A DNA stretch of 23,166 nucleotides, taken from a virus. How positions within the stretch are numbered: the stretch's first letter is position 1; each line of letters opens with the position of its first letter. The DNA lies in IMG/VR virus record IMGVR_UViG_3300045282_000239, positions 1 to 23,166 of that record, one strand, 5' to 3'. Under the pieces are notes generated by a model. The model did no database searches. It was not told the DNA's origin and was given only the letters and a program-made list of their open reading frames with translations. Below are positions 8,559 through 22,589 of the stretch, in pieces. The translations under genes and the position numbers were made by a program.

Positions 8559-9047
8559 ATGGCCGTCCTCGATTTCGTCCAGGTCGCCACCGATGGGCCG
8601 GGCAAGCGCATCGTCAATGTCAAGCATACCGGGGCCGGTCCCGGCGGGGTCGATGTCTACGGGCAGGTTACCCACGTCACCGACCCCACCGATCCTACCA
8701 AGGTGGTCGGGGCCGCGAGTGCCCTGCCCTCTCCATCGGCCGTCGGCATGGTCATGCGTGAGGCCCCCCACAATGTCGATACCGGCAATCTGCTGCTCAC
8801 CGCCGCGATCCAGACCCTGGTATCGGGCGATGTCTGGGGGCATCACCTGTTCATTGTCAACCTCACCGACTCCATCCACTGGATCGGCATCGAGGATGCC
8901 GCTGGCCACAAGTACCTGACTATGTACCCGCTGCCGCCCCGCGATTTCCGTTCGATTCCGTTGGGCGGGATGAAATTCACCGGTGGGGTATTCGCCACCA
9001 CCGATGAAGATTCGTTAATCCGTGCGCAGTTCGTGGGAGATCAGTAA
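8559..9047 (+). CDS. Virion-associated beta-rich protein (162 aa), unknown
   Basis: ATG 8559 has GGGAG six bases upstream; the stop overlaps the next start (TAATG at 9044-9048). The protein starts MAVLDFVQVATDGPGKRIVNV and is beta-rich throughout, with Gly/Pro/Thr turns and a C-terminal LPPRDFRSIPLGGMKFTGG segment of the sort found in tail-spike or fibre accessory proteins. It is directly coupled to the large repeat protein downstream, which suggests the two work together. No catalytic motif is seen. Confidence 0.65.
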   Translation: MAVLDFVQVATDGPGKRIVNVKHTGAGPGGVDVYGQVTHVTDPTDPTKVVGAASALPSPSAVGMVMREAPHNVDTGNLLLTAAIQTLVSGDVWGHHLFIVNLTDSIHWIGIEDAAGHKYLTMYPLPPRDFRSIPLGGMKFTGGVFATTDEDSLIRAQFVGDQ

Positions 9048-12000
9048 TGCGATCCAAGATTATAGCGATTGTCGTCCTCATCCTGATGCTATCGACCGGC
9101 CTGAGCGGTCAGGATCAGTTTACATCGGCCACGCTCAGCTCGGCGACCTGTCCCGGCAGCGGCTGTGTGACCCTCCAGATCGCCAATGGGGCGACCGCCG
9201 CCATTCAGATCACCGGTACGTGGGTAGGTGTCCAGACGTTCCAAGCGACGGTCGATGGTACCACATTCTTCCAGATCCCGAATACCATCCCCGCTACCGC
9301 CAATGGCATGTGGACATTCAGCGTCGCTGGCTTCCGTGCGGTGAGGGTACGGACGACCACATTCACATCGGGGTCGGCAGTTGTCTCGCTCCGGGTATCG
9401 ACTGCCTCTACCGGGATCATCGCCAGCCGCTCGGTGACCGGTACAATGGCCAGCAGTGGGACATCCTTCGACATCGATACTACTGGGATGGCGACGCTGA
9501 TCGGGTACGAGAATACGAACGCGACCGCGCAGTACTCCCTGTACGGATCGGCCGATGGAGTGAACTTCTACGATATCATCCCGGTCACCCAGCCGGGATC
9601 TGCCGGGCAGGGATACCCGGATATTCAGCGTACAACCGTTATTCAGAGCATGTTCAAGGCAAATGTTGCAGGTCATGCTATGGTGCGTCTCTCTCGATTC
9701 GGCGGCACCGGATCGGCGAATTGGACGTTTGGACTATCGCCTGCTCCATACAACACCGGATCGTCGGTGGTGGTATTCGGTCCGAATGGGAACGGGATCA
9801 CGGTCGATGGAAGTGGCCTGCTGAAAGTCGATGCCAGCGGCACCAACCTGAACGTTTCCGGTATTGATACCGAGAGCGGCAGTCCTTCTGCCTTCCATTT
9901 GAATGTCGGCGGAATCTACAACGACAGTATGGCGGCCGTGACGCCATCGGCGCGTACTGGCGGATTCAGGATCACCCCTAACCACGCGTTGCATGTGAAT
10001 CTGCGCGACCAGTCAGGGGCCGAGTTGACGTCGCTACCCGTGACTGGCACGTTCTTTCAGGCCATCCAGCCGGTCAGCGGGACGTTCTGGCAGGCCACCC
10101 AGCCGGTTTCGATTGCGACCATGCCATCGACTCCGGTAACGGGAACATTCTGGCAGACGACTCAGCCGATATCAGGGACCGTGACCGCCACCGGACCTGT
10201 CACCGACACCCAGCTGCGGGCGACCCCGGTCCCGGTATCGGGAACCGTGACCGCGACCACAGGCGGCCTCACAGACACGCAGCTGCGAGCGTCTGGTGTT
10301 GGAATCCTCGGTGTCCCCCTTACCGCGACCGGGACGATTACGGCGAACGCGCAGAACGTTACTATCAATATGTCGGCGGCATCCTATGGCACCGTTGGGA
10401 TCAGCAACACCGGGACATGGAATGGGGCGCTCACTGCCCAGACCAGTGTGGATGGAACGAATTGGGCTGATACCGTTGCGTGTGATACATCGAGCGGAAC
10501 TTGCTCGGCTATCCTCGTCCCCAGCACTACTTCCGTCGCCAACGTCTCCGGCGCGCACTCATTCCGGATCCTGAGTTCCGCCGGAACAACTGGGACCACG
10601 ACGATCAACCTGCGGGCGACCTCGATGTCCGCGAATATGATCCGCCTGTCCAACGCAGTCAGCCTCGCGGGAGCACCGACGGTCAGCCTCGCGTTCGGAA
10701 CCGAGGTCAACCAGAACGTGCTATCCACGTGGAATGTCGCGCTCGCGTCTGTTCCGACGCACGCGGTCACCGGTCCGGTGACGGACACCCAGCTGCGAGC
10801 CTCCGCTGTTCCGGTCTCCCTCGCGACGGTTCCCTCTCACGCTGTTACCATCGCGACCCTCCCTGCCCTGACGGCCGGTTCCGCCGTTATCGGTCACGTC
10901 ATCAACGATACGGGGTCTACGACGGCGGTTACCGGGACGGTCGCCGTTAGCGGACCTATTACCGATACCCAGATCCGAGCGACGCCGCTGCCGGTGACGG
11001 GTACCATGACCGCGAACGCCGTCATCTCGACGGTGAACAGTTCGACCGCGACCCTCGGCATCGGCGCGGTGTTCACCGGGACATCAGAGGACATCACCGA
11101 GTATGCCGACATACGGGTCTACGTCTTCGCGGATCAGGCATCCGCGACCGACGGTCTTTCGATCCAACAGTCAAGTAACGGAACCAACTGGGATGTGACC
11201 GACGTCTATACCATCCCGGCATCGACCGGGAAGACCTTCAGCGTCCCGGCCTCGGCGAAATTCTATCGGGTGGTATACACCAACGGCGGGGTCGCCAATA
11301 CCGCCTTCCGCCTACAGACCATCTTCCGCAAGGTCGTAACCAAGTCATCGTCGGTGCGCCCGCAGGATGCGCGGACCAACGACAACGACATGGAAGAGGC
11401 GGCGGCCTACATCAGCGGGTTCAACGGGACTACATGGGATCGAATCCGATCGGGCGGCAATAACAACGATGCCGAGGCGGTCGCCACCACCGGGCAGCTC
11501 GATGTCGAAGCGCACAACATGGCGTACAATGGGGCGACCTGGGATCGCATCCGTACATCGGTGAAGGGGACGCAGGCGACCACCGCTCTCGCCACCCAGG
11601 ATCTCAAGGATTCCGGCCGCACCTCTGTAATGATCACCGCGACGGTCGCTTCGACGGCGACTGCCGAGACGCTGATCACGCTGACCCGCAGTGTCGGCCT
11701 CGCGGCGACCGGCACCTGTAGCTCCTGCACGATTACCACCGGGAAACGGTTTCGAATTCAATCGATCGCGATCTCTGCCCGCAAAAGCACAGGAACCGTC
11801 GCCGCGAACGTTACGGTCAATTTCCGTGCGGCCGTTGCGGGTGCGACCACGGCAGCGTCACCGCTCCAGATGCATTTCATGGCCCCGTTGCCAGCCAGCG
11901 CCGTTGCCGTACTGTTTCCTCCGATCATGATTCCTGACGGCTTCGAGATTGATTCCAACTCGGCGACTAATACGTTCGGCATGACGATCACAGATCCGGG

Positions 12001-12061
12001 CTGGGTGACCGCCGCACAGATCTCGACTTTCGATATCACGCTCGTCGGATACGAGTATTAG
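9047..12061 (+). CDS. Large multi-domain repeat protein with signal peptide; fibre/adhesin-like (1004 aa)
   Basis: The N-terminus MRSKIIAIVVLILMLSTGLSG is a textbook signal peptide (basic start, 13-residue hydrophobic core, small residues before QDQ). Residues about 23-125 and 128-235 are beta-sandwich-like units (QATVDGTTFF; YGSADGVNFYD). Residues about 328-420 carry PVSGTFWQATQPVS and DTQLRATPVPVSG repeats. A third sandwich (437-531, QTSVDGTNWAD) is followed by more DTQLRA repeats, a fourth (about 665-767, QQSSNGTNWD) and two NGTTWDRIR units near 790 and 827, then a C-terminal beta domain. The composition is Thr/Ser/Ala/Gly-rich. The repeats are typical of phage fibre or adhesion proteins; the signal peptide is not. 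Coupled to the upstream gene by TAATG. Confidence 0.75.
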   Translation: MRSKIIAIVVLILMLSTGLSGQDQFTSATLSSATCPGSGCVTLQIANGATAAIQITGTWVGVQTFQATVDGTTFFQIPNTIPATANGMWTFSVAGFRAVRVRTTTFTSGSAVVSLRVSTASTGIIASRSVTGTMASSGTSFDIDTTGMATLIGYENTNATAQYSLYGSADGVNFYDIIPVTQPGSAGQGYPDIQRTTVIQSMFKANVAGHAMVRLSRFGGTGSANWTFGLSPAPYNTGSSVVVFGPNGNGITVDGSGLLKVDASGTNLNVSGIDTESGSPSAFHLNVGGIYNDSMAAVTPSARTGGFRITPNHALHVNLRDQSGAELTSLPVTGTFFQAIQPVSGTFWQATQPVSIATMPSTPVTGTFWQTTQPISGTVTATGPVTDTQLRATPVPVSGTVTATTGGLTDTQLRASGVGILGVPLTATGTITANAQNVTINMSAASYGTVGISNTGTWNGALTAQTSVDGTNWADTVACDTSSGTCSAILVPSTTSVANVSGAHSFRILSSAGTTGTTTINLRATSMSANMIRLSNAVSLAGAPTVSLAFGTEVNQNVLSTWNVALASVPTHAVTGPVTDTQLRASAVPVSLATVPSHAVTIATLPALTAGSAVIGHVINDTGSTTAVTGTVAVSGPITDTQIRATPLPVTGTMTANAVISTVNSSTATLGIGAVFTGTSEDITEYADIRVYVFADQASATDGLSIQQSSNGTNWDVTDVYTIPASTGKTFSVPASAKFYRVVYTNGGVANTAFRLQTIFRKVVTKSSSVRPQDARTNDNDMEEAAAYISGFNGTTWDRIRSGGNNNDAEAVATTGQLDVEAHNMAYNGATWDRIRTSVKGTQATTALATQDLKDSGRTSVMITATVASTATAETLITLTRSVGLAATGTCSSCTITTGKRFRIQSIAISARKSTGTVAANVTVNFRAAVAGATTAASPLQMHFMAPLPASAVAVLFPPIMIPDGFEIDSNSATNTFGMTITDPGWVTAAQISTFDITLVGYEY
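10034..11001 (+). repeat. Internal coding repeats (VTGTFWQ.TQPVS and DTQLRA.PVPV units)
   Basis: Within the 1004-residue protein, three TGTFWQ-type units start near 10037, 10076 and 10139, and four DTQLRA/DTQIRA units near 10205, 10274, 10787 and 10964. DNA copies have diverged (for example gacacccagctgcg versus gatacccagatccg), so these are old duplications kept at protein level. One sandwich domain (10357-10640) separates the two repeat groups. Confidence 0.7.
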
Positions 12062-12753: not shown

Positions 12754-13236
12754 ATGGAAGATGATCCAGATCTGATTACCGTGCAGCAGTTCGCCGACCG
12801 CTACCGCGTCGATGCCTCGATGGTCCGCTCGTGGGTACGCTCCGGCCACATCGCCTATGAACTGGTAGGACCGCGCCGGTTGCGCCGGGTACGGGTATCG
12901 GCCCTCGTGGTCCCGATCGTACCGCCCACAATCATTCCACCGCCGCCGCCGGGTCCACGCAACTGCGATCCGGAGATCACGATCATTCTGCCATCGCCCT
13001 CGACCGAGCCGCCGTGGTCGGTAGATTTTTCCTGTGAGAGCGACAATGGGGAGGGCACTCCCAATCCGGCAGATGAGCACACCGAGTTCGACAAGGAAAT
13101 CAAAGAAGGAGAGGCAGATGGGAATCAACGACCGGATGGTGGACCCCGAGAAGAACCCGCTGGTGTCGGAGGAAATGAAAAAGGTACTGGTCGAGGAAAA
13201 GCGAAGGGAGCAAAACGAGACGCTCGCCGTCCTTGA
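12754..13236 (+). CDS. Excisionase/MerR-like helix-turn-helix protein with low-complexity tail (160 aa)
   Basis: Residues about 7-48 form a winged helix-turn-helix of the excisionase/MerR type: LITVQQFADRYRVDASMVRSWVRSGHIAYELVGPRRLRRVRVSAL (given in parts: TVQQFADRYRVDASMVRSW, then GHIAYELV, then a basic wing). A proline-rich segment follows (IIPPPPPGP), then an acidic and finally Gly/Arg/Lys-rich tail. The tail beyond 13118 overlaps the next gene in another frame and has poor third-position GC, so it may carry little constraint. GAGGGGG upstream supports ATG 12754. Probably DNA binding; target unknown. Unusual in a structural block. Confidence 0.7.
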   Translation: MEDDPDLITVQQFADRYRVDASMVRSWVRSGHIAYELVGPRRLRRVRVSALVVPIVPPTIIPPPPPGPRNCDPEITIILPSPSTEPPWSVDFSCESDNGEGTPNPADEHTEFDKEIKEGEADGNQRPDGGPREEPAGVGGNEKGTGRGKAKGAKRDARRP

Positions 13237-13420
13237 TGTCCTGCGCCGTACCCGTAAGGCCAGAGGCGGGGTCGGTGCCCCCCTCAAGGTGCCTGCCCAC
13301 CTCGGCGGCACCGATGATGGCCTAATCGTCCTCACCGACCCCGATAGCATTGAGGAGCTGGTAGAGAACGAGCGCGAGGAGGCCAGTAAGGGTGATAAGC
13401 CGATCGATCTCAAGGATTGA
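13118..13420 (+). CDS. Small charged protein (100 aa), unknown
   Basis: ATG 13118 has AAGGAG six bases upstream and the frame shows the GC-rich third positions typical of this genome from the first codons, so the start is placed here although it lies inside the previous gene. The product is highly charged: a helical N-terminal half (NPLVSEEMKKVLVEEKRREQNETLAVLDVLRRTRKARG), a middle GVGAPLKVPAHLGGTDDG and an acidic helix (IEELVENEREEASKG). Such proteins can be scaffolding or assembly factors; I do not recognise it. The stop is two bases from the glycosyltransferase start. Confidence 0.65.
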   Translation: MGINDRMVDPEKNPLVSEEMKKVLVEEKRREQNETLAVLDVLRRTRKARGGVGAPLKVPAHLGGTDDGLIVLTDPDSIEELVENEREEASKGDKPIDLKD

Positions 13421-13422
13421 TC

Positions 13423-13992
13423 ATGATCACCACCCCACCCCGATTCTCGGTGATCGTGGCAACGATCGGGCGCGATACCCTCCCTCGCGCCCTCCGTTCC
13501 CTCGCCTCCCAGCCGCTATCTCACGGCGATGAGGTCCTGGTCGTCGGCGCTAGCGATCGGGTCAATCGCCTTGCTACCACATTCGGGTACACCTATATCC
13601 ATTGTAAACCCGGTGGCGATTACGGGGCGGCCGAGCGGACATTAGGGATGGAGTATGCCCGCGGTACCCACCTAGCATTCCTGGATGATGATGATGTCTA
13701 CCTTCCGGGGGCATTCAATGCGATGCGGCAGGTGGCTGTCGAGCACCCCGCCAGCCCCATCATGTTCCGCATGATCGATCCCAATGGGGCGCTGTTATGG
13801 ATGGATCCCGAGATCCGGATGGGCAATCACGGCACCCCCCAGTTCGTACCTCCCAACTATCCTACCAAGCTGGGCAAGTGGACATCCCGGTACGAGGGTG
13901 ATTTCGACTTCTGCACATCGACCCTCGCCCTCTACCCGCCCAATTCCCTGATCTGGTCCACGGCCATCATCTATGCTTGCCGTCCCAAGTAA
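13423..13992 (+). CDS. GT-A fold glycosyltransferase, family 2-like (189 aa)
   Basis: Transfers a sugar from a nucleotide-sugar donor to an acceptor. The N-terminus FSVIVATIGRDTLPRALRSLASQ is the nucleotide-binding strand and helix of family 2 enzymes. GMEYARGTHLAFLDDDDVYLPGA at about 75-97 contains the DxD metal site (D88-D91) with the usual preceding A-G-x-x-x-x-F context. After it come a short acceptor part and an aromatic C-terminus. At 189 residues it is a minimal catalytic domain with no membrane segment, so it is likely cytoplasmic and acts on phage proteins or soluble donors. AAGGA upstream supports ATG 13423. Location among virion genes points to virion glycosylation; this is inference. 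Confidence 0.8.
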   Translation: MITTPPRFSVIVATIGRDTLPRALRSLASQPLSHGDEVLVVGASDRVNRLATTFGYTYIHCKPGGDYGAAERTLGMEYARGTHLAFLDDDDVYLPGAFNAMRQVAVEHPASPIMFRMIDPNGALLWMDPEIRMGNHGTPQFVPPNYPTKLGKWTSRYEGDFDFCTSTLALYPPNSLIWSTAIIYACRPK

Positions 13993-14221
13993 GCCGATCA
14001 AGAGGAAGCCCCTCCCCGAGGCGATCAGCGTCCGCCAGACCGCCGAGATCCTCGGGGTGTGCACCCTCACCATCCGCCGATGGATCAAGCGGCGGTACAT
14101 TAAAGCTTATCGGGTCGGTCCTTTCCTGATTCGCATCCCGCGCAGCGAGATCTCGCGGATGCGCACCGTCATGGTCGTCGATGAGGATAAGTACAGCCAC
14201 CCCCTATATCCCAGGGTGTAA
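13973..14221 (+). CDS. Excisionase-like helix-turn-helix protein (82 aa)
   Basis: Residues about 17-58 have the layout of the helix-turn-helix 17 (excisionase/MerR) group: AISVRQTAEILGVCTLTIRRW, then IKRRYIKAYRVGPFLIRIPRSEI as the wing. A basic N-terminus (KPIKRKPLPEA) and a short tail complete it. It overlaps the glycosyltransferase end by 20 bases and has no clear ribosome binding site, so translation may be coupled. Role could be transcription control or DNA architecture. No integrase is visible nearby, so excisionase function is not supported. Confidence 0.7.
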   Translation: MLAVPSKPIKRKPLPEAISVRQTAEILGVCTLTIRRWIKRRYIKAYRVGPFLIRIPRSEISRMRTVMVVDEDKYSHPLYPRV

Positions 14222-14290
14222 CCTCCGGACATATGCACAATTATTAACAATTAACCGGCCTTCCCTCTGAGGCATGCTCCAATCCGTGGT

Positions 14291-14743
14291 ATGCCAACTA
14301 CGGCGTTCCAGATCTCCAAGCTGGATGACGACCTTCACCTCGTCTTCGGGTACGCCAATGTGTCGATCTCGAAATCGACATCGGGTGGATCGGGCGGCAA
14401 GGAGTTCTTCGACCTCCAGCGCGACTCCATTCCGCCCGCCGAGCTTGAGAAGGCCGCCTACGATTTCGTCCTGGATTTTCGCGATACCGGCGAGATGCAC
14501 AAGGGCGATTCAGTCGGCCGCCTGATTGAATCGATCGTATTCACACCCGACAAGCTGCAGGCGCTCGCCACCGATCCAGTGAGCGGGGTCGTCTACGAGG
14601 AGGGGCTCGCCGTCCTCAAGCAGCTACTCCCGCCGCGCTGGTGGGTGGGATTCAAGCTGGAACCGGCCTCCTATCAGGCCGTCAAGTCCGGTAAATACAA
14701 GATGTTCTCGATCGCCGGTGAAGCCGACAGAACGGAGGTGTGA
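14291..14743 (+). CDS. XkdF-like prohead protease (150 aa)
   Basis: Matures the procapsid by cleaving scaffold and capsid parts. The sequence follows the XkdF-type serine protease pattern: KEFFDLQRDSIPPAELEKAAYDFVLDF, then GEMHKGDSVGRLIES (H70, S81), VFTPDK, PPRWWVGFKLE and finally YKMFSIAGEA (S140). His70 and Ser140 are the likely catalytic pair by analogy with prohead proteases, though I cannot align them here. The size is small but normal for the family. It is followed with one base gap by a scaffold gene, as is usual. The ribosome binding site before ATG 14291 is weak. Confidence 0.82.
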   Translation: MPTTAFQISKLDDDLHLVFGYANVSISKSTSGGSGGKEFFDLQRDSIPPAELEKAAYDFVLDFRDTGEMHKGDSVGRLIESIVFTPDKLQALATDPVSGVVYEEGLAVLKQLLPPRWWVGFKLEPASYQAVKSGKYKMFSIAGEADRTEV

Positions 14744-14744
14744 G

Positions 14745-15845
14745 GTGTCCAAGCCAGCACCCAAACCCGGAATCCTGCGCAACCTCAGGATCAAGCGGGT
14801 CGATCTGGTGGATGCTGGTGCAAATTTCGATGCATCCACTGGCGACGGTGCCCATATCATGCTGTTCAAGAGGGATGTCAGCAAGGACTCCCCGAGCATG
14901 TCCCAATCCCATGTCGATGTCCCGATCGGATGCACCTGCTCCGGGAAGGGGACATGCGAAAAGTGCAAGGAGATGAAATTGTCCACCAAACCATCTGCCA
15001 CATTCAAGTCGCTAGTCGACAAGATGTTGTCGCTATTCGGCGAAACCGATGTCGCCAAGCGGACGGCCGCGATCGAGGAGATCCAGAAGGAGGCCGTCGA
15101 GATCTCGGCCGCCGCCCCCGGTGCCCTCCCCGTTCCCGGTGCCCTGCCCGCCGCCGCGCCCCCGGTCCATCCCGCCGCCGCCCCAGCCGCCCCCGCTGCC
15201 GCGCCCCCAGTTCCGCCATCGGTCAAGGACTTCCTCACCAAGGCGATCATGGAGTGCGGTGCCGGTCCGTTCCCGGCGGGTCATCCGGTGCACGCCCTCA
15301 AGGCGCTTCTCGATCAGATGTCACCGGCCGTACCCGCCGCCCCCGTACCCGCAGCCACACCGGCTGCCCCCGCTCCACCCGTCGCCAAGGGAGATACCAC
15401 CGTGGATGCTGAAGTCGCCAAGCGCATGACCGATCTCGAAAAGCGAGCCACCGATGCCGAGGCGGCGGTGCTGGTCGAGAAGAACCTCCGTCTCGACCGC
15501 GAGATGACCGACATCCTCAAGGGGTTCAAGGCCACCCCGTTCGATCTCGCCAAGGACGTCGCCGTCTACCGCAAGATGAAGGAGGACGACCCCGCCGCAT
15601 TCGAGCGGACCATGGCGATCCTCAGGGCCACCGATGCCCAGCTGGCCGGGTCGGACCTGTTCAAGAATATCGGGTCCCCGATCTCGGGTGGCGCGGACGG
15701 CAGCGCGTGGGCGCAGATCGAGGCCAAGGCCGATGCCCTGCTGGAGAAGTCGGCCGACGCCACCCTGACCCGCGAGCAGGCCATCGAGAAGGTCATGTTC
15801 GCGAACCCGAAGCTCGTCAAGATGTACCGCGACCAGCAGCAGTAG
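14745..15845 (+). CDS. Scaffolding-type capsid assembly protein (366 aa)
   Basis: GTG 14745 is selected because GGAGG lies six bases upstream, just after the protease stop. The start, ILRNLRIKRVDLVDAGANFDAS and HIMLFKRD, is the segment often found in the protein following XkdF-type proteases. C63, C65, C71 and C74 form a small zinc-knuckle-like cluster. Two Ala/Pro-rich linkers (about 121-159 and 194-213) flank a short helical unit. Residues about 220-265 predict a coiled coil, followed by a helical C-terminus. Scaffold proteins guide capsid shell assembly and are removed or degraded. The position between protease and capsid genes supports this. Confidence 0.72.
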   Translation: MSKPAPKPGILRNLRIKRVDLVDAGANFDASTGDGAHIMLFKRDVSKDSPSMSQSHVDVPIGCTCSGKGTCEKCKEMKLSTKPSATFKSLVDKMLSLFGETDVAKRTAAIEEIQKEAVEISAAAPGALPVPGALPAAAPPVHPAAAPAAPAAAPPVPPSVKDFLTKAIMECGAGPFPAGHPVHALKALLDQMSPAVPAAPVPAATPAAPAPPVAKGDTTVDAEVAKRMTDLEKRATDAEAAVLVEKNLRLDREMTDILKGFKATPFDLAKDVAVYRKMKEDDPAAFERTMAILRATDAQLAGSDLFKNIGSPISGGADGSAWAQIEAKADALLEKSADATLTREQAIEKVMFANPKLVKMYRDQQQ

Positions 15846-15894
15846 GAGCGACCCTGATCCCGTTCCGATAGTTCAGATTTAAGGAGAATCGAGC

Positions 15895-16302
15895 ATGCCA
15901 TTCCAGGGACAGATGCCGCTCAAACTGACCGGTGCCAAGGCGGGTGCCGGGTTGACAGTTGCGACGGCGCAGTACAAGTGGGTCAAGCTGAGCGCGGACA
16001 ATACCGTCGTCCTCTGCGCTGCTGTCACCGATCAGCCGATCGGTGTCCTTCAGGCCCCGGTCGCCGCGACCGGCGATCCCGTCGATGTCGTCGTGGTCGG
16101 GGAAACCCAGATCCAGGCCGACGTCTCGATCACCGCCGGTCAGAACCTCGGCACGTCGGCCGATGGACAGGCATCGATCGTCACCCCAGGTCCCGGCACG
16201 TTGTGGAACTGCGGGAAGGCCGTCAACGTCGCGGGTGCCACCACCGCTGGCAACCTGATCACCGCGGTCGTCAACTGCGTGAACCCATCGCCCGCCGCGT
16301 AA
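15895..16302 (+). CDS. Head decoration protein, DUF2190-like (135 aa)
   Basis: Good AAGGAG site before ATG 15895. The protein is a small Ala/Val/Gly-rich beta protein: KLTGAKAGAGLTVATAQYKWVKLS, DQPIGVLQAPVAATGDPVDVVVVGETQIQADVSITAGQNLGTSADG. This is the form of head-decoration/stabilisation proteins that lie just upstream of the major capsid gene. It lacks enzymes motifs, signal peptide and membrane segments. Expected to coat the outer face of the capsid at the three-fold axes in many copies. A glycosylation target is possible because it would be surface exposed. Confidence 0.75.
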   Translation: MPFQGQMPLKLTGAKAGAGLTVATAQYKWVKLSADNTVVLCAAVTDQPIGVLQAPVAATGDPVDVVVVGETQIQADVSITAGQNLGTSADGQASIVTPGPGTLWNCGKAVNVAGATTAGNLITAVVNCVNPSPAA

Positions 16303-16344
16303 TGTTGGGTGTCAATTAACCCAGGCATTTCAGGAGAAGATTAG

Positions 16345-17334
16345 ATGCCCAGCCCGTACCTGTCACAGATCCACGTGGATCGACCACTGACCAACATGTC
16401 AGTGGCGTACATCCAGTCGGACAAGATGTTCATCGCCGGGAAGGTATTCCCGATCGTGCCGGTGGACAAGAAATCCGGACTCTACTTCGTCTACAGCAAG
16501 GACGATTGGTTCCGGGACGATGCCCAACTCCGCGCACCGGCCGCCGAGTCGGCGGGCGGAGGGTACGACATCAGCAACACCGGGTACGTCTGCAACGTGT
16601 GGGCGTTCCACAAGGACGTCGATGAGCAGGAGATCTACAACGCCGATGCGCCGATCTCCCCCGAACGCGACGCCGCCCGGTTCGTCACCCGCAAGCTGCT
16701 GCTGAGGCAGGAGATCCAGTGGGTCACCGATTACATGACCACCGGTATCTGGACCGGTTCATCGACCGGTACCGACATCGTGCCCGGCGTCCTGTGGGAT
16801 GACCCACTGTCAACCCCGATCGAGGACATCCAGGCTCAGCAGCTGGCGGTCCTCACCAATACCGGATTCGAGGCCAATGCCCTCGTCCTCGGATTCGCCG
16901 TCTACCTCAAGCTGATCCGGCACCCCGACATCATCGACCTGATCAAGTACGGGGCCGGTCCCGGCAACCCGGCGATCGCGAATGAGGCCGCGCTCGCCAA
17001 GATCTTCGGCGTCGAGAAGGTCTACATCTCCAAGGCGGTCAAGAACACCGCCGCGAAGACGCCGGGGTCGAACACCTTCACCGGCACCATGGTCGCGGGC
17101 AAGGGCGTCCTCCTCGCCTACGTCAATTCGTCGCCGGGGATCATGGAGCCGTCGTCGGGGTACACCTTCATGTGGAAGGGCATCTCGCGGGGGCTGGGAT
17201 CGACCATCGCCTCCTACCGCATCCCGATGCCGTGGCTCGGCCTCGAAACCGTGCGCATCGAGTCCGAGATCGCCTTCGCGAACAAGGTGATCGGTGGCGA
17301 CCTCGCCGCGTTCTTCAACGGGGCCATCCCATAA
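16345..17334 (+). CDS. Major capsid protein (329 aa)
   Basis: AGGAG upstream of ATG 16345. The sequence begins PSPYLSQIHVDRPLTNMSVAYIQ and continues FIAGKVFPIVPVDKKSGLYFVYSKDDWFRDDAQLRAP, which is the N-terminal arm and E-loop region of a group of HK97-fold major capsid proteins. The middle (TRKLLLRQEIQWVTDYM) is the spine helix, and the C-terminal part has A-domain strands. There is no N-terminal delta domain, consistent with a separate scaffold. Codons favour GAC for Asp more than most neighbours, typical of high expression. It is followed by a strong hairpin. Confidence 0.88.
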   Translation: MPSPYLSQIHVDRPLTNMSVAYIQSDKMFIAGKVFPIVPVDKKSGLYFVYSKDDWFRDDAQLRAPAAESAGGGYDISNTGYVCNVWAFHKDVDEQEIYNADAPISPERDAARFVTRKLLLRQEIQWVTDYMTTGIWTGSSTGTDIVPGVLWDDPLSTPIEDIQAQQLAVLTNTGFEANALVLGFAVYLKLIRHPDIIDLIKYGAGPGNPAIANEAALAKIFGVEKVYISKAVKNTAAKTPGSNTFTGTMVAGKGVLLAYVNSSPGIMEPSSGYTFMWKGISRGLGSTIASYRIPMPWLGLETVRIESEIAFANKVIGGDLAAFFNGAIP

Positions 17335-17354
17335 ATCGATCTTCGCCAAGGGAC

Positions 17355-17379
17355 GGGGGTGGGTATCGATCCCACCCCC
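17355..17379 (+). terminator. Strong hairpin after the major capsid gene
   Basis: GGGGGTGGG at 17355-17363 pairs perfectly with CCCACCCCC at 17371-17379 around a seven-base loop (TATCGAT). This is nine base pairs of almost pure G-C. The following ACGGTTCTACC has no full T tract, so termination may be partial, which would lower expression of the downstream connector genes relative to the capsid. It lies 21 bases after the capsid stop. Confidence 0.75.
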
Positions 17380-17411
17380 ACGGTTCTACCATCAATCAAT
17401 CAGGAGATCCC

Positions 17412-17978
17412 ATGACGGACAAGGCACACGAGATGAGCGAAGGTCAGATCCGGCGCGAGAGGGCGGAAGCCGCCCACTCCAGCGGGCACGAGCCTCCCCC
17501 GGATGGCGCGGTTCCCGTTCCCGATGGTTCCCTACCCAAAACGGGGACGACCAGACCGCAGGACGATCCGCCCCCGGCGGCACCGCTTACCGAATTCTCC
17601 AAGGGGGCAACGACGCCGGCGGATGTGGCGGCGGCCAAGGCCGAATCCGATGCCGCCGCCCGGCGGGCGACCCAGACCAGCGGTGCCCGCGATTCCAACC
17701 ACCCCGACGGGCTACGCCGACCCGATGGGTCATACGTCCCTTTCGGTACCCGCGAGCATGAGTCCAAGGCATCCGGTCGCGCCAAGTACGATGATCGGGT
17801 CAAGGAGGGGGTCAAGCAGGTGATTACTGCCCTGCAGATGCAGACCTCCAATCTGCACGATCTCATCGATCACATCGACAACCACGGAACGGTGACCCGC
17901 AATCAGATCGATCACGTCAAGGGCAAGATCGAAGACGTGATTCGGGGCCTGAGCGAGGCATCGGGCGTACCGAGCTAG
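17412..17978 (+). CDS. Hypothetical protein with disordered N-part and C-terminal helices (188 aa)
   Basis: ATG 17412 has GGAG five bases upstream and lies directly after the capsid hairpin. Residues 1-100 are polar, Pro/Ala/Asp/Arg-rich and probably disordered (GHEPPPDGAVPVPDG; KGATTPADVAAAKAESD). Around 107-117 there is a PDGSYVPFGTRE segment. The C-terminus (about 130-183) is predicted helical or coiled coil (RVKEGVKQVITALQMQTSNLHDLIDHIDN). Product not recognised. As the first gene after the capsid it may be a minor head protein. Confidence 0.62.
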   Translation: MTDKAHEMSEGQIRRERAEAAHSSGHEPPPDGAVPVPDGSLPKTGTTRPQDDPPPAAPLTEFSKGATTPADVAAAKAESDAAARRATQTSGARDSNHPDGLRRPDGSYVPFGTREHESKASGRAKYDDRVKEGVKQVITALQMQTSNLHDLIDHIDNHGTVTRNQIDHVKGKIEDVIRGLSEASGVPS

Positions 17979-17988
17979 GGCCAGGGCG

Positions 17989-18171
17989 ATGACGGGCACA
18001 TCAGAGGCAATCCGCACGACCACCTACGTGGTCGCCAAGAGCAAGGTCATCGGGGGCAGGCCATATGCCCCCGGTGACCCGTTCGATATCTCCCAACTGG
18101 ATGATCACAAGGTCAGCCAGCTGCTCGCTCAGCGCATCATTCGCCCCGTCATGTCTCAACCGGACACTTAA
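17989..18171 (+). CDS. Small head-connector-region protein (60 aa)
   Basis: The body YVVAKSKVIGGRPYAPGDPFDISQLDDHKVSQLLAQRIIRP is a pattern seen in many small phage proteins coded between capsid and head-tail connector genes: a strand, a G-x-x-Y-x-P-G-D turn and a helix ending in an R-x-I-x-P. No function has been assigned that I can name. An AGGG site lies very close to ATG 17989, so the ribosome binding site is only fair. The gene lies ten bases after the previous stop. Confidence 0.65.
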   Translation: MTGTSEAIRTTTYVVAKSKVIGGRPYAPGDPFDISQLDDHKVSQLLAQRIIRPVMSQPDT

Positions 18172-18230
18172 AATCCCACCCCAGCTCCGGATGGCGACGC
18201 CGATCATGGTGTCGATGGGAAGGAGATCAG

Positions 18231-18458
18231 ATGGCCGCAGGATCAGCAGGTTTGTTCAGGGTCAGCACGCTGGCGGTTGGTAAGGCTTGCATCACCACAT
18301 TCGCTGGTGCCCCCGTCAGCGGCGCATCCGGGACCTACAAGGGGACGGTCCGCGCCAACCCCGGTTCCCTCCTCATCGACGTCACCAACCTATTCCTGTA
18401 TATCAACACCGGCACCAAGGCCAGCCCGACCTGGACCAAGGTGGGGTTGCAGGTATGA
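18231..18458 (+). CDS. Small beta-rich virion-like protein (75 aa)
   Basis: AAGGAG is followed by ATG 18231 at a suitable distance. The sequence has a short Ala/Gly-rich N-terminus and then strands with NPGSLLIDVTNLFLYINTGTKASPTWTKVG, a pattern I have seen in small phage head or tail decoration proteins. It overlaps the next gene by four bases (ATGA). No signal peptide or membrane segment. Likely structural; not recognised more closely. Confidence 0.6.
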   Translation: MAAGSAGLFRVSTLAVGKACITTFAGAPVSGASGTYKGTVRANPGSLLIDVTNLFLYINTGTKASPTWTKVGLQV

Positions 18459-18883
18459 GCGTCAGACCAAGCATTCGTGCGACCCTGTACTCGGCCACAA
18501 TCACGGCCGCGATTACGGCTGTTGCTCAAGCCGTCGTCGGCGGCCTTACCAGTTGCCGCTATCTGGTCCTGCAGGCCAATTTCGTATATGGGTCGGGCGG
18601 GACCAGCGCCGATGTCTGGGTGCAGACCAGCGTTGATGGCGGGGTGACGTGGTTCGACATTGCCAACTTCCACTTCCTGGTGGCGAGCGGCAAGAAGATC
18701 CATGTGATCGACATCAACCCCGCGACTCCATTCCCACCGGCCACGGTCCCGGCATCGGGGGCGCTGGCGGCAAATACGATCCTGAACGGGGTCCTGGGTG
18801 ATCGCTTCCGCGCCCTCGTCACCACGGTTGGGACCTATGCCGGGGGCACCACATTCGCAGTCGATATGGTGGCCAAGGGGTAA
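18455..18883 (+). CDS. Beta-sandwich virion-like protein (142 aa)
   Basis: ATG 18455 overlaps the previous stop (ATGA). The core CRYLVLQANFVYGSGGTSADVWVQTSVDGGVTWFDIANFHF is a beta-sandwich pattern with the motif QTSVDGGVTW, and residues 50-140 are strands with Gly/Ala/Thr turns. The same motif occurs in the large repeat protein (QTSVDGTNWAD). Single-domain proteins like this sit between capsid and connector genes in many siphovirus-like genomes and could decorate the head or neck. Exact role unknown. Confidence 0.62.
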   Translation: MSVRPSIRATLYSATITAAITAVAQAVVGGLTSCRYLVLQANFVYGSGGTSADVWVQTSVDGGVTWFDIANFHFLVASGKKIHVIDINPATPFPPATVPASGALAANTILNGVLGDRFRALVTTVGTYAGGTTFAVDMVAKG

Positions 18884-18886
18884 ATC

Positions 18887-19360
18887 ATGGCCTGGACCTA
18901 TGATCCTACTCAGTTCGGCAGCACAACGGTGGGGACGGTCGCCGGATCGACCATCGGGGTACGATACCAGATCCGGTTGATGCTGCAGGATACCAATACC
19001 GCCCGCCAGCTGTTCCAGGATGAGGAGATCGACTGGCAGCAGACCCAGGAGAGCAACATGTGGATGGCGGCGGCAGCGCTCGCCGACATCCTGGTTGCCA
19101 AGGGCGGAGGGGTAAAATCGAAGCGGATCTCAGAGTTCGAGATCCAGTACGACCCGCGAATGTACCTGACGATCGCGACCCGGTTGCGGGCACGCGGCAT
19201 GGACTATCAGGTGCCTTACGCGGGCGGCATCTCCAAGGCGGATAAGGCCGCACAGCAGGGCGATCCTGACTGGGTGCGTCCGAGCATTGCGAGAGGGCAT
19301 GGCGACAATCCCGAGGCCATGAACCCTGCGCCCATTACCAACCCGTTGACCACGATCTGA
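18887..19360 (+). CDS. Head-tail adaptor (head completion) protein (157 aa)
   Basis: AAGGGG before ATG 18887. The sequence is typical of gp6/gp15-type adaptors: GVRYQIRLMLQDTNTARQLFQDEEIDWQQTQ, then a long helix with AAAALADILVAKGGGVKSKRISEFEIQYD and a C-terminal unstructured tail. The RLMLQDTNxxxxLFQDEEI segment is the main diagnostic feature. These proteins form a ring under the portal that links it to the stopper and tail. It is followed two bases later by a glycosyltransferase gene that separates it from the stopper gene. Confidence 0.78.
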   Translation: MAWTYDPTQFGSTTVGTVAGSTIGVRYQIRLMLQDTNTARQLFQDEEIDWQQTQESNMWMAAAALADILVAKGGGVKSKRISEFEIQYDPRMYLTIATRLRARGMDYQVPYAGGISKADKAAQQGDPDWVRPSIARGHGDNPEAMNPAPITNPLTTI

Positions 19361-19362
19361 TC

Positions 19363-20388
19363 ATGCGCATCCTATTCGTATGGCCGGTTGCCACATTCTC
19401 CGTCTGGGATGTGGCACGCGGCTATCGGTCGGCGTTCGCCAAGATCGTTGGCGAGGAGAATATCCGCGATTACAACCTGAATACCCGATCCGATCACCAT
19501 CGGCGGGCGCTCCCTGCCCCGCAGAATATTGATCCGGTCACGGTGTCGCGGCTGGCATCGGAGACGGTGGTATGCGAAGCCATCTACTTCGATGCCGACG
19601 TGGTGTTCATCGTGTCCGGCCTCAATTTCCACCCGGTCGCCCTCAATGCGTTACGCAAGATCGGGATCCATGTCGCGACCATCCTCACCGAGTCCCCCTA
19701 CGATGATGATCCGCAGCTGGAGTGGACATCGGTGTACCCCGAGATGTCGATATTCACTAACGAGCTGATATCAGCCAAGCGCTATGGCTGGGAGTACGTC
19801 CCACATTCGTACGATCCCGAGATCCACAAGCCGGTGCCCCCATCCAAGTCCTGTGACGTCCTGATGTGCGGTACCGGCTGGGTAGAGCGGCAGAAGGTGC
19901 TGGAGGCGGTCGATTGGGAGGGGATCGATCTCCGCCTGATGGGGCTGTGGCCGTCGATCGAACCGCACATGAAGCTGGCCCCGTACGTCCATCAGGGTTG
20001 CATCGATAACCTCCAGATGCCCGCGATCTATGCCGGAGCCAAGATCTGCCTCAATATCCACCGCGAATTTCAGGGGGCGATGAGCCTGAATCCTCGGGCC
20101 TACGAGGTCGCCGCCTGTGGGGCATTCCAGATCTCGGATTACCGCAAGGAGATCGACTTCGTATTCGGCGATAGCGTTCCCGTATTCTACAATCCGGACG
20201 ATCTCGGTCGCTTGATCCGTCACTACCTCGCGAATGATGGCGATCGGGTGACATGCGCGATTACCGCCAAGATCAATGTCAACAACTGTACATTCGACCA
20301 TCGGGCCGAGCAGGTAATCGACAAGATCAGGCGCGACCTAAAGGCACACCAGTCGCGCAAGGCCCATCGATCGGAGGTGACCACATGA
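19363..20388 (+). CDS. GT-B fold glycosyltransferase, CgeB-like (341 aa)
   Basis: The start MRILFVWPVATFSVWDVARGYRSAF is the N-terminal Rossmann strand and helix of a GT-B enzyme. Further on are HVATILTESPYDD, YVPHSYDPEIHKP (about 145-156) and, in the C-terminal domain, SLNPRAYEVAACGAFQISDYR (about 240-260), the donor-binding signature of CgeB-type glycosyltransferases. The family uses nucleotide-sugar donors. No membrane segment, so cytoplasmic. It sits between adaptor and stopper genes, and its stop overlaps the stopper start (ATGA). Ribosome binding site before ATG 19363 is weak. Substrate unknown; virion proteins or cell surface are the natural candidates. Confidence 0.82.
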   Translation: MRILFVWPVATFSVWDVARGYRSAFAKIVGEENIRDYNLNTRSDHHRRALPAPQNIDPVTVSRLASETVVCEAIYFDADVVFIVSGLNFHPVALNALRKIGIHVATILTESPYDDDPQLEWTSVYPEMSIFTNELISAKRYGWEYVPHSYDPEIHKPVPPSKSCDVLMCGTGWVERQKVLEAVDWEGIDLRLMGLWPSIEPHMKLAPYVHQGCIDNLQMPAIYAGAKICLNIHREFQGAMSLNPRAYEVAACGAFQISDYRKEIDFVFGDSVPVFYNPDDLGRLIRHYLANDGDRVTCAITAKINVNNCTFDHRAEQVIDKIRRDLKAHQSRKAHRSEVTT

Positions 20389-20723
20389 GCTTCTCCACGG
20401 TCGATGAATGGGCGGACTTCATGCCCGACACCGTGACCCTCGACGCGTGGGTCGGGAAGACGGTATCCGATGCCCCGATCTATGCACTCGCCCCCGCCAC
20501 ATTCCAGGCTCGCGTCGAGATCAAGAACCACATGATCCGCGACAACAAGGGGAATGAGATAGTAGCTCGCGGCCGGGTATTCATGCGGACGACCGTAATC
20601 CCCGATACCCGCGACAAGCTGGTATTGCCCGGCCGCTTCGAGCCGGTGTCGCCCCCGATCCTCGCCGTCAATCCGGTGAGCGATGAGAGCGGCACCCATC
20701 ACGTGACGCTGGAGATCGGGTAA
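20385..20723 (+). CDS. Head-tail stopper-like protein (112 aa)
   Basis: ATG 20385 overlaps the previous stop with GGAGG upstream. The protein is beta-rich: FMPDTVTLDAWVGKTVSDAPIYALAPATFQARVEIKNHMIRD, then GNEIVARGRVFMRTTVIPDTRDKLVLPG, typical of small stopper proteins that close the head-tail channel before tail joining. Length is normal for that group. Its neighbours (adaptor upstream, gp10-like downstream) also fit. Its stop overlaps the next start (TAATG). Confidence 0.72.
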   Translation: MSFSTVDEWADFMPDTVTLDAWVGKTVSDAPIYALAPATFQARVEIKNHMIRDNKGNEIVARGRVFMRTTVIPDTRDKLVLPGRFEPVSPPILAVNPVSDESGTHHVTLEIG

Positions 20724-22187: not shown

Positions 22188-22589
22188 ATGTCACAAGCGA
22201 TTCACGGTAAAGCCGCAGTCCTCTACCTCGGGGCGAATGGCGGCACCGCAATCTTCATCGCGGAGCAGGTCGATTGGTCGCTCGACTTCGATATGGCGAT
22301 CGTCGATGTGTCGCCATTGAACAACAAGTGGAAGAAGTTCGTCAAGGGCATGGCGGGCTATACCGGCGCATTCGCCGGGAATTACGATGACAGCTCCAAT
22401 CAGCTGTTCCTGGCATCCCTGAGCGATGTCGCCGAGAAGTGGTACCTGTACCCCAACTCGCTCAAGATGGGCAACTTCTACTTCGGCACCGCGTGGGTCC
22501 AGCTGGGCAAGATCGCAGCGGGATCGACGACGGCGAAGGCATCCACCGGGTTCAAGATCACCGGGGATGGAGCGCTGAGCAACGTCTGA
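22188..22589 (+). CDS. Major tail (tube) protein (133 aa)
   Basis: A very good AAGGAG site precedes ATG 22188 after an 83-base gap that lets it be a strongly translated gene. The sequence shows IHGKAAVLYLGANGGTAIFIAEQVDWSLDFDMAIVDVSPLNNKWKKFVKGMAGYTGAFAGNYDD, the fold pattern of short tail tube proteins, where a strand-rich core is followed by a loop and helix. The end (GSTTAKASTGFKITGDGAL) is typical too. Forms the tube of stacked rings. The tail terminator upstream and the probable assembly chaperone downstream agree. Confidence 0.78.
   Translation: MSQAIHGKAAVLYLGANGGTAIFIAEQVDWSLDFDMAIVDVSPLNNKWKKFVKGMAGYTGAFAGNYDDSSNQLFLASLSDVAEKWYLYPNSLKMGNFYFGTAWVQLGKIAAGSTTAKASTGFKITGDGALSNV

Follow-up and report, generated by a model that had tools for sequence, protein, structure and literature searches.

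Two glycosyltransferases of different fold in the structural gene block of a virus, and the linkage of one of them to the major tail protein gene

Two glycosyltransferase genes lie among the head and tail genes of a soil virus, in an IMG/VR record of 23,166 bases, which was analysed over its whole length and is called the window here: which protein, glycan or nucleic acid would these enzymes act on? The reading frames at 13423-13992 and 19363-20388 are both present, on the plus strand, and are flanked by structural genes identified through profile matches (terminase, portal, S78-type protease, scaffold/decoration-like protein, major capsid protein, head-tail connectors and major tail protein, MTP). 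An earlier note on this DNA had described two glycosyltransferases of different fold within a head and tail gene block, and this description is borne out by the reading frames, their Pfam matches, confident models and structural neighbours.

Two enzymes with GT-A and GT-B folds

The product of the first gene, GT2 (13423-13992), is a compact GT-A glycosyltransferase of 189 residues, a single domain with no C-terminal extension, which matches PF00535 (E 8.7e-11, 42.5 bits against a curated cut-off of 23.3) and is modelled by AlphaFold2 with a pLDDT of 95.0 and a pTM of 0.91. Its Foldseek matches include the fucosyltransferase WrtF (9omn, E 6.5e-12) and a Leptospira glycosyltransferase of about 190 residues (6p61), so that a minimal GT-A domain has a solved precedent. 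Together with the GT-A fold the protein has a D-x-D-type motif: residues 88-91 (DDDD, 13684-13695, within FLDDDD at residues 86-91) form the predicted metal and nucleotide-sugar site, and D89 and D90 are invariant in an alignment of 21 family members, as are G159, D160, W178 and P188. The invariant G159-D160 is a candidate for the acidic catalytic base.

The product of the second gene (GT-B, 341 residues, 19363-20388) is a CgeB-like glycosyltransferase, which matches PF13524 (Glyco_trans_1_2; E 2.8e-21, 76.4 bits, cut-off 25) and is modelled with a pLDDT of 96.5 and a pTM of 0.92. The model has the two Rossmann domains of the GT-B fold, and its Foldseek matches are GT-B enzymes (7qsg, MshA 3c4q, BshA 3mbo); across 30 sequences, P112, Y113, H155, D165, G170, R176, G194, Y223, R234, P244, R245, E248, R261 and R314 are invariant. 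An assignment to the classical GT4 enzymes with their EX7E motif was rejected: E248 is invariant, but the position eight residues further on is Q256 in the window and is not glutamate in the relatives. Both proteins thus pass the Pfam searches proposed in the earlier note, and of the intact donor sites that it presupposed, the confident folds and invariant residues of both enzymes speak in favour, while the second glutamate of EX7E is missing from the GT-B.

The same note had reported no membrane anchor in either enzyme, and indeed there is no obvious one, the most hydrophobic 19-residue segments (Kyte-Doolittle 1.07 and 1.71) lying inside confidently folded globular domains. Neither reading frame is a chance frame, since the nearest relatives keep both genes at the same places, with 70-71% amino-acid identity, and since dN/dS against the nearest relative (Nei-Gojobori, each enzyme separately) is 0.21 for GT2 and 0.25 for GT-B, indicating purifying selection on both. 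The gene order of the window recurs on three contigs (L001, L003 and L005), as far as each contig reaches, with enzymes about 70% identical.

The GT-B gene is tightly packed between its neighbours: its ATG lies 2 nt past the stop codon of the preceding gene (18887-19360, plus strand; phrog_1732, of unknown function, in an adaptor-like position), and it overlaps the following gene by 4 nt (ATGA) at 20385. That gene (20385-20723, plus strand) matches phrog_3881 (E 2.3e-6), a head-tail connector, and occupies the stopper position. The packing and the common strand suggest that the glycosyltransferase genes are co-transcribed with the structural genes.

Linkage of the GT-B gene to the major tail protein gene

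The MTP of the window, the tail-tube protein (133 residues, 22188-22589, plus strand; phrog_10528 and phrog_1407, major tail protein), is encoded five genes downstream of the GT-B and more than ten genes away from GT2. In relatives the association with the GT-B is closer. A scan of viral sequences with the GT-B alignment gave 316 relatives, of which 80 were kept and their genes called with our own gene caller; in 49 of the 59 non-redundant copies having a next gene, that gene belongs to a single cluster, identified by PHROGs as the MTP. A GT2 gene lies nearby in 27 of 62 non-redundant GT-B loci. In the reverse direction, a scan with MTP alignments finds a GT-B within 300 nt upstream of 66 of 68 non-redundant MTPs, a proportion that describes this MTP clade and not tail proteins at large, the alignments having been seeded with GT-B-linked MTPs; in an enlarged set, into which a clade lacking the GT-B was drawn on purpose, the GT-B is adjacent in 119 of 156. 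Bacterial genomes hold the same pair, GT-B followed by MTP, in all five phage-type copies (MAGs of Gallionellaceae, Actinomycetota, Acidimicrobiia and Propionibacteriaceae, and the cultured Klenkia brasiliensis DSM 44526), and no MTP match is found at any of 28 other, more distant bacterial loci.

The pairing persists over phages with different head modules. The usual slot of the GT-B is between the tail terminator and the MTP. Methyltransferases share this slot, and now and then it has a gene for a GNAT acetyltransferase, for a DegT/DnrJ/EryC1 aminotransferase or for a radical-SAM protein. The window itself, L001 and L037 depart from this: their GT-B is at another place in the structural block, in L037 between the terminase and portal genes. 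Since neighbouring tail genes are inherited together, their adjacency does not prove that one encodes an enzyme and the other its substrate.

The two enzymes are further connected by natural fusions. In four relatives a GT2 homologue (59-61% identical) and a GT-B form one reading frame, of 547 residues in L006, where both PF00535 and PF13524 are detected, and of 566 residues in L008-L010; L163 and L221 (the latter from the same contig as L008) have this architecture too. In L011, GT2 is fused to a TylF-like methyltransferase domain, with the GT-B directly after. Such single-frame fusions, as Rosetta-stone evidence, argue that the two activities work together; against a joint module counts the group L012-L024, in which the GT2 family is present and this GT-B is not. 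The earlier note had proposed that the two enzymes build a virion glycan jointly, and of this the cooperation gains from the fusions and from the near-obligate linkage of GT-B and MTP genes, the modification itself staying conjectural.

Among 50,697 isolated-phage records in INPHARED, tblastn at 1e-5 gives no match to GT2 or to GT-B, nor to the GT2::GT-B fusion or a second relative of each enzyme; a GT2-GT2 protein gives two weak partial matches only, and tblastn with the MTP gives none. A literature search combining CgeB, phage and glycosyltransferase found no paper.

The tail tube as candidate acceptor

These considerations make it probable that GT2 and GT-B constitute a module for the glycosylation of virion proteins, specifically of the tail tube, with the MTP as the leading acceptor. 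The earlier note had listed the Ser/Thr-rich 1004-residue protein, the decoration protein and the MTP side by side; judged by synteny, the MTP would be the most likely of the three, and nothing points to either of the others. The GT-B would move a sugar from a host nucleotide-sugar onto the MTP during late gene expression, before or during tail assembly, and GT2 would then extend this by another sugar. Methyltransferases may tailor the glycan in relatives, as may an aminotransferase or acetyltransferase in rare cases, and the outcome would be a tail tube covered with glycan. The GT-B is placed first because it is nearly always found with this tail protein, GT2 being optional. Catalysis, donor, order of action and acceptor residue are what we infer from genes and models.

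For the acceptor residue, conservation points to Tyr88 of the MTP (codon at 22449-22451, plus strand, in YLYPNS), a candidate site of glycosylation or recognition. Within the 156 non-redundant MTPs this tyrosine of the LYP motif is found in all 119 with an adjacent GT-B and in 6 of 7 with a GT-B further away, the window included, the sole exception being L007, with a GT-B of no more than about 25% identity; it is found in none of the 26 MTPs lacking the GT-B, from which L298 was left out (it is from the same contig as L037, has its GT-B beyond the fetched piece, and has the tyrosine). Tyr88 is the most conserved MTP column in the GT-B phages and is variable in the relatives lacking the enzyme, in contrast to the columns that rank next in conservation, which are kept with and without GT-B alike. 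No GT-B was found in ten GT-B-less contigs searched over their whole length by a search run without a positive control. Repeated joint loss of Tyr88 and GT-B is not supported: one or two changes suffice on the tree, essentially one clade split, and in two further scans the GT-B group yielded no additional lineage lacking the enzyme. Moreover, the solved MTP of phage R4C (8gtb), a distant relative (E 0.0018), has LELYP with an aligned tyrosine and no such glycosyltransferase. Given the single clade split and this counter-example, Tyr88 is put forward only as a hypothetical site, and the full proposal, that the GT-B O-glycosylates the invariant Tyr88, that the glycan is lengthened and capped by GT2 and methyltransferases, and that this is widespread in uncultured phages, is tentative and appears rather unlikely as a whole.

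Other readings taken up (ALTERNATIVES) are DNA modification, host-surface modification and other virion acceptors. The enzymes might glycosylate another virion protein (capsid, tape measure, fibre or the Ser/Thr-rich 1004-residue protein), the slot beside the MTP being merely convenient for late expression; the dispersal of the window's two genes among head genes, the position of the GT-B in L037, and a capsid among the glycosylated proteins of mycobacteriophages (PMC11256854 and PMC12619734) agree with this. It is nevertheless unlikely, as the GT-B tracks the MTP family over phages with different capsids and no other structural gene cluster occurs in as many of the loci. If the enzymes instead altered glycans on the host surface, in an infection or in a lysogen, for serotype conversion or superinfection exclusion, one could point to the more distant bacterial CgeB-like relatives, which are cellular enzymes, some of them beside other glycosyltransferase genes, and to the relatives that are prophages; with no Gtr-type membrane partner or flippase recognised beside the genes, soluble folds predicted for both enzymes, a location in the late structural block and not in a lysogeny region, and near-obligate linkage to the MTP, this is quite improbable.

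Hypermodification of phage DNA bases is a very improbable function. DNA is a possible substrate of viral glycosyltransferases (Pyle et al. 2024, as cited by PMC12619734), and a gene of the thymidylate synthase family (PF00303) is present in 2 of 14 related virus records (L035 and L044, both of the window's wider group); against this, the other 12 records, which are fragments, have no PF00303 gene, Tet_JBP (PF12851) is found in none of the 14 fragmentary records by a search that had no positive control, and the glycosyltransferase genes sit with tail genes, to which relatives add methyltransferases and an aminotransferase of sugar-acting types. That the genes are decayed or selfish cargo (morons) with no virion role would fit their variable position among relatives and the optional GT2, and is extremely unlikely in view of dN/dS values of 0.21-0.25, the invariant residues and a GT-B kept in 66 of 68 MTP loci.

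Comparison with known glycosyltransferases and glycosylated phages

Among enzymes of the GT2 type, WrtF (9omn), SpsA (1h7q) and 6p61 have in common with the window GT2 the GT-A fold and the D-x-D-type site, with a query TM-score of about 0.7-0.8; they differ in sequence, being 15-19% identical, and the GT2 of the window consists of one minimal domain. The Glyco_trans_1_2 (CgeB-like) enzymes share both fold and Pfam family (PF13524) with the window GT-B; for the cellular ones identity is mostly 24-34%, along a part of the protein, and there is no linkage to an MTP, whereas the phage branch is linked. Phages also encode glycosyltransferases of GT-A and GT-B folds that glycosylate DNA. The window enzymes have these fold types, and differ in that no partner base-modification gene was recognised in the window or most relatives, the records being fragments and the Tet_JBP search as qualified above.

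Glycosylation of virions is known in mycobacteriophages of the Che8 type (Freeman et al. 2023, via PMC11256854 and PMC12619734), and capsid and tail-tube proteins are reported there to bear glycans. The glycosyltransferases are phage-encoded and without obvious membrane anchors, as in the window, and Che8 gp108 appears by eye to be a fusion of a GT2 and a methyltransferase, like L011. The parallel drawn in the earlier note holds for the kind of system but not for its enzymes: Che8 has no convincingly homologous glycosyltransferases and no isolated phage matched those of the window. The Che8 enzymes score only 4-14 bits on the window's GT2 profile and have no meaningful score on its GT-B profile, so that no homology is convincing. 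The arrangement differs as well, the three annotated glycosyltransferase genes of Che8 being at the far end of the genome, distant from the structural genes, whereas in the window the GT-A and GT-B genes are inside the structural block and in its family the GT-B is tied to the MTP gene.

Glycosylation of phage virions is known from few isolates, and the system of the window is a distinct set of enzymes. By gene order this GT-A/GT-B set is tied to one structural protein, on many uncultured phage contigs and in the genome of a cultured actinobacterium, which suggests that the uncultured viruses keeping a GT-B beside the tail-tube gene, in hundreds of related sequences, may put sugars on their own tails. 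Since gene order here names a candidate acceptor, and the cultured actinobacterium is a possible strain for a test, the frequency and purpose of tail glycosylation become directly testable.

Possible sugar-tailoring genes and variants around GT-B

In three related loci (L054, L072 and L101), genes lying between relatives of GT2, the compact GT-A enzyme (13423-13992, plus strand), and those of GT-B, the CgeB-like PF13524 enzyme (19363-20388, plus strand), encode a GNAT acetyltransferase and a DegT/DnrJ/EryC1 sugar aminotransferase; these genes suggest an amino sugar as donor or product there. Elsewhere, L104 and L107 carry two different GT-B paralogues per structural block, one of which precedes the major tail protein gene, and a Gallionellaceae locus (L113:11695-12521) has two such tail genes in tandem, downstream of GT2, a methyltransferase and GT-B. 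Within the wider group to which the window belongs, contigs L035 and L044 each encode a divergent thymidylate-synthase-family protein, which could act in nucleotide metabolism or base modification.

Genes upstream of GT2

An HTH_17-like ORF (12754-13236) overlaps the next one, which starts at 13118, by about 119 nt in a different frame; relatives of both frames (12754-13420) occur, overlapping alike, in L001 and L005, near relatives that share the window's gene order as far as their contigs extend. Between portal and protease lies the gene of a 1004-aa protein (9047-12061; 26% Ser/Thr); its N-terminus (MRSKIIAIVVLILMLSTGLSGQ) resembles a signal peptide, and it has a weak match to DUF6385 (E 6e-4), an odd set of features for that place. 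At the left end (1-2900), AT/GC skew differs and the called genes are all short and on the minus strand; a module boundary is likely here.

Larger cassettes in other phages

Other uncultured phages (L012, L014-L024) carry a bigger cassette than the window's, without a window-type GT-B, with portal/capsid genes on one side and adaptor genes on the other. It encodes a protein made of two GT2 units fused in tandem (GT2-GT2), along with additional GT2-like proteins, one that is GT4-like and one that resembles a methyltransferase.
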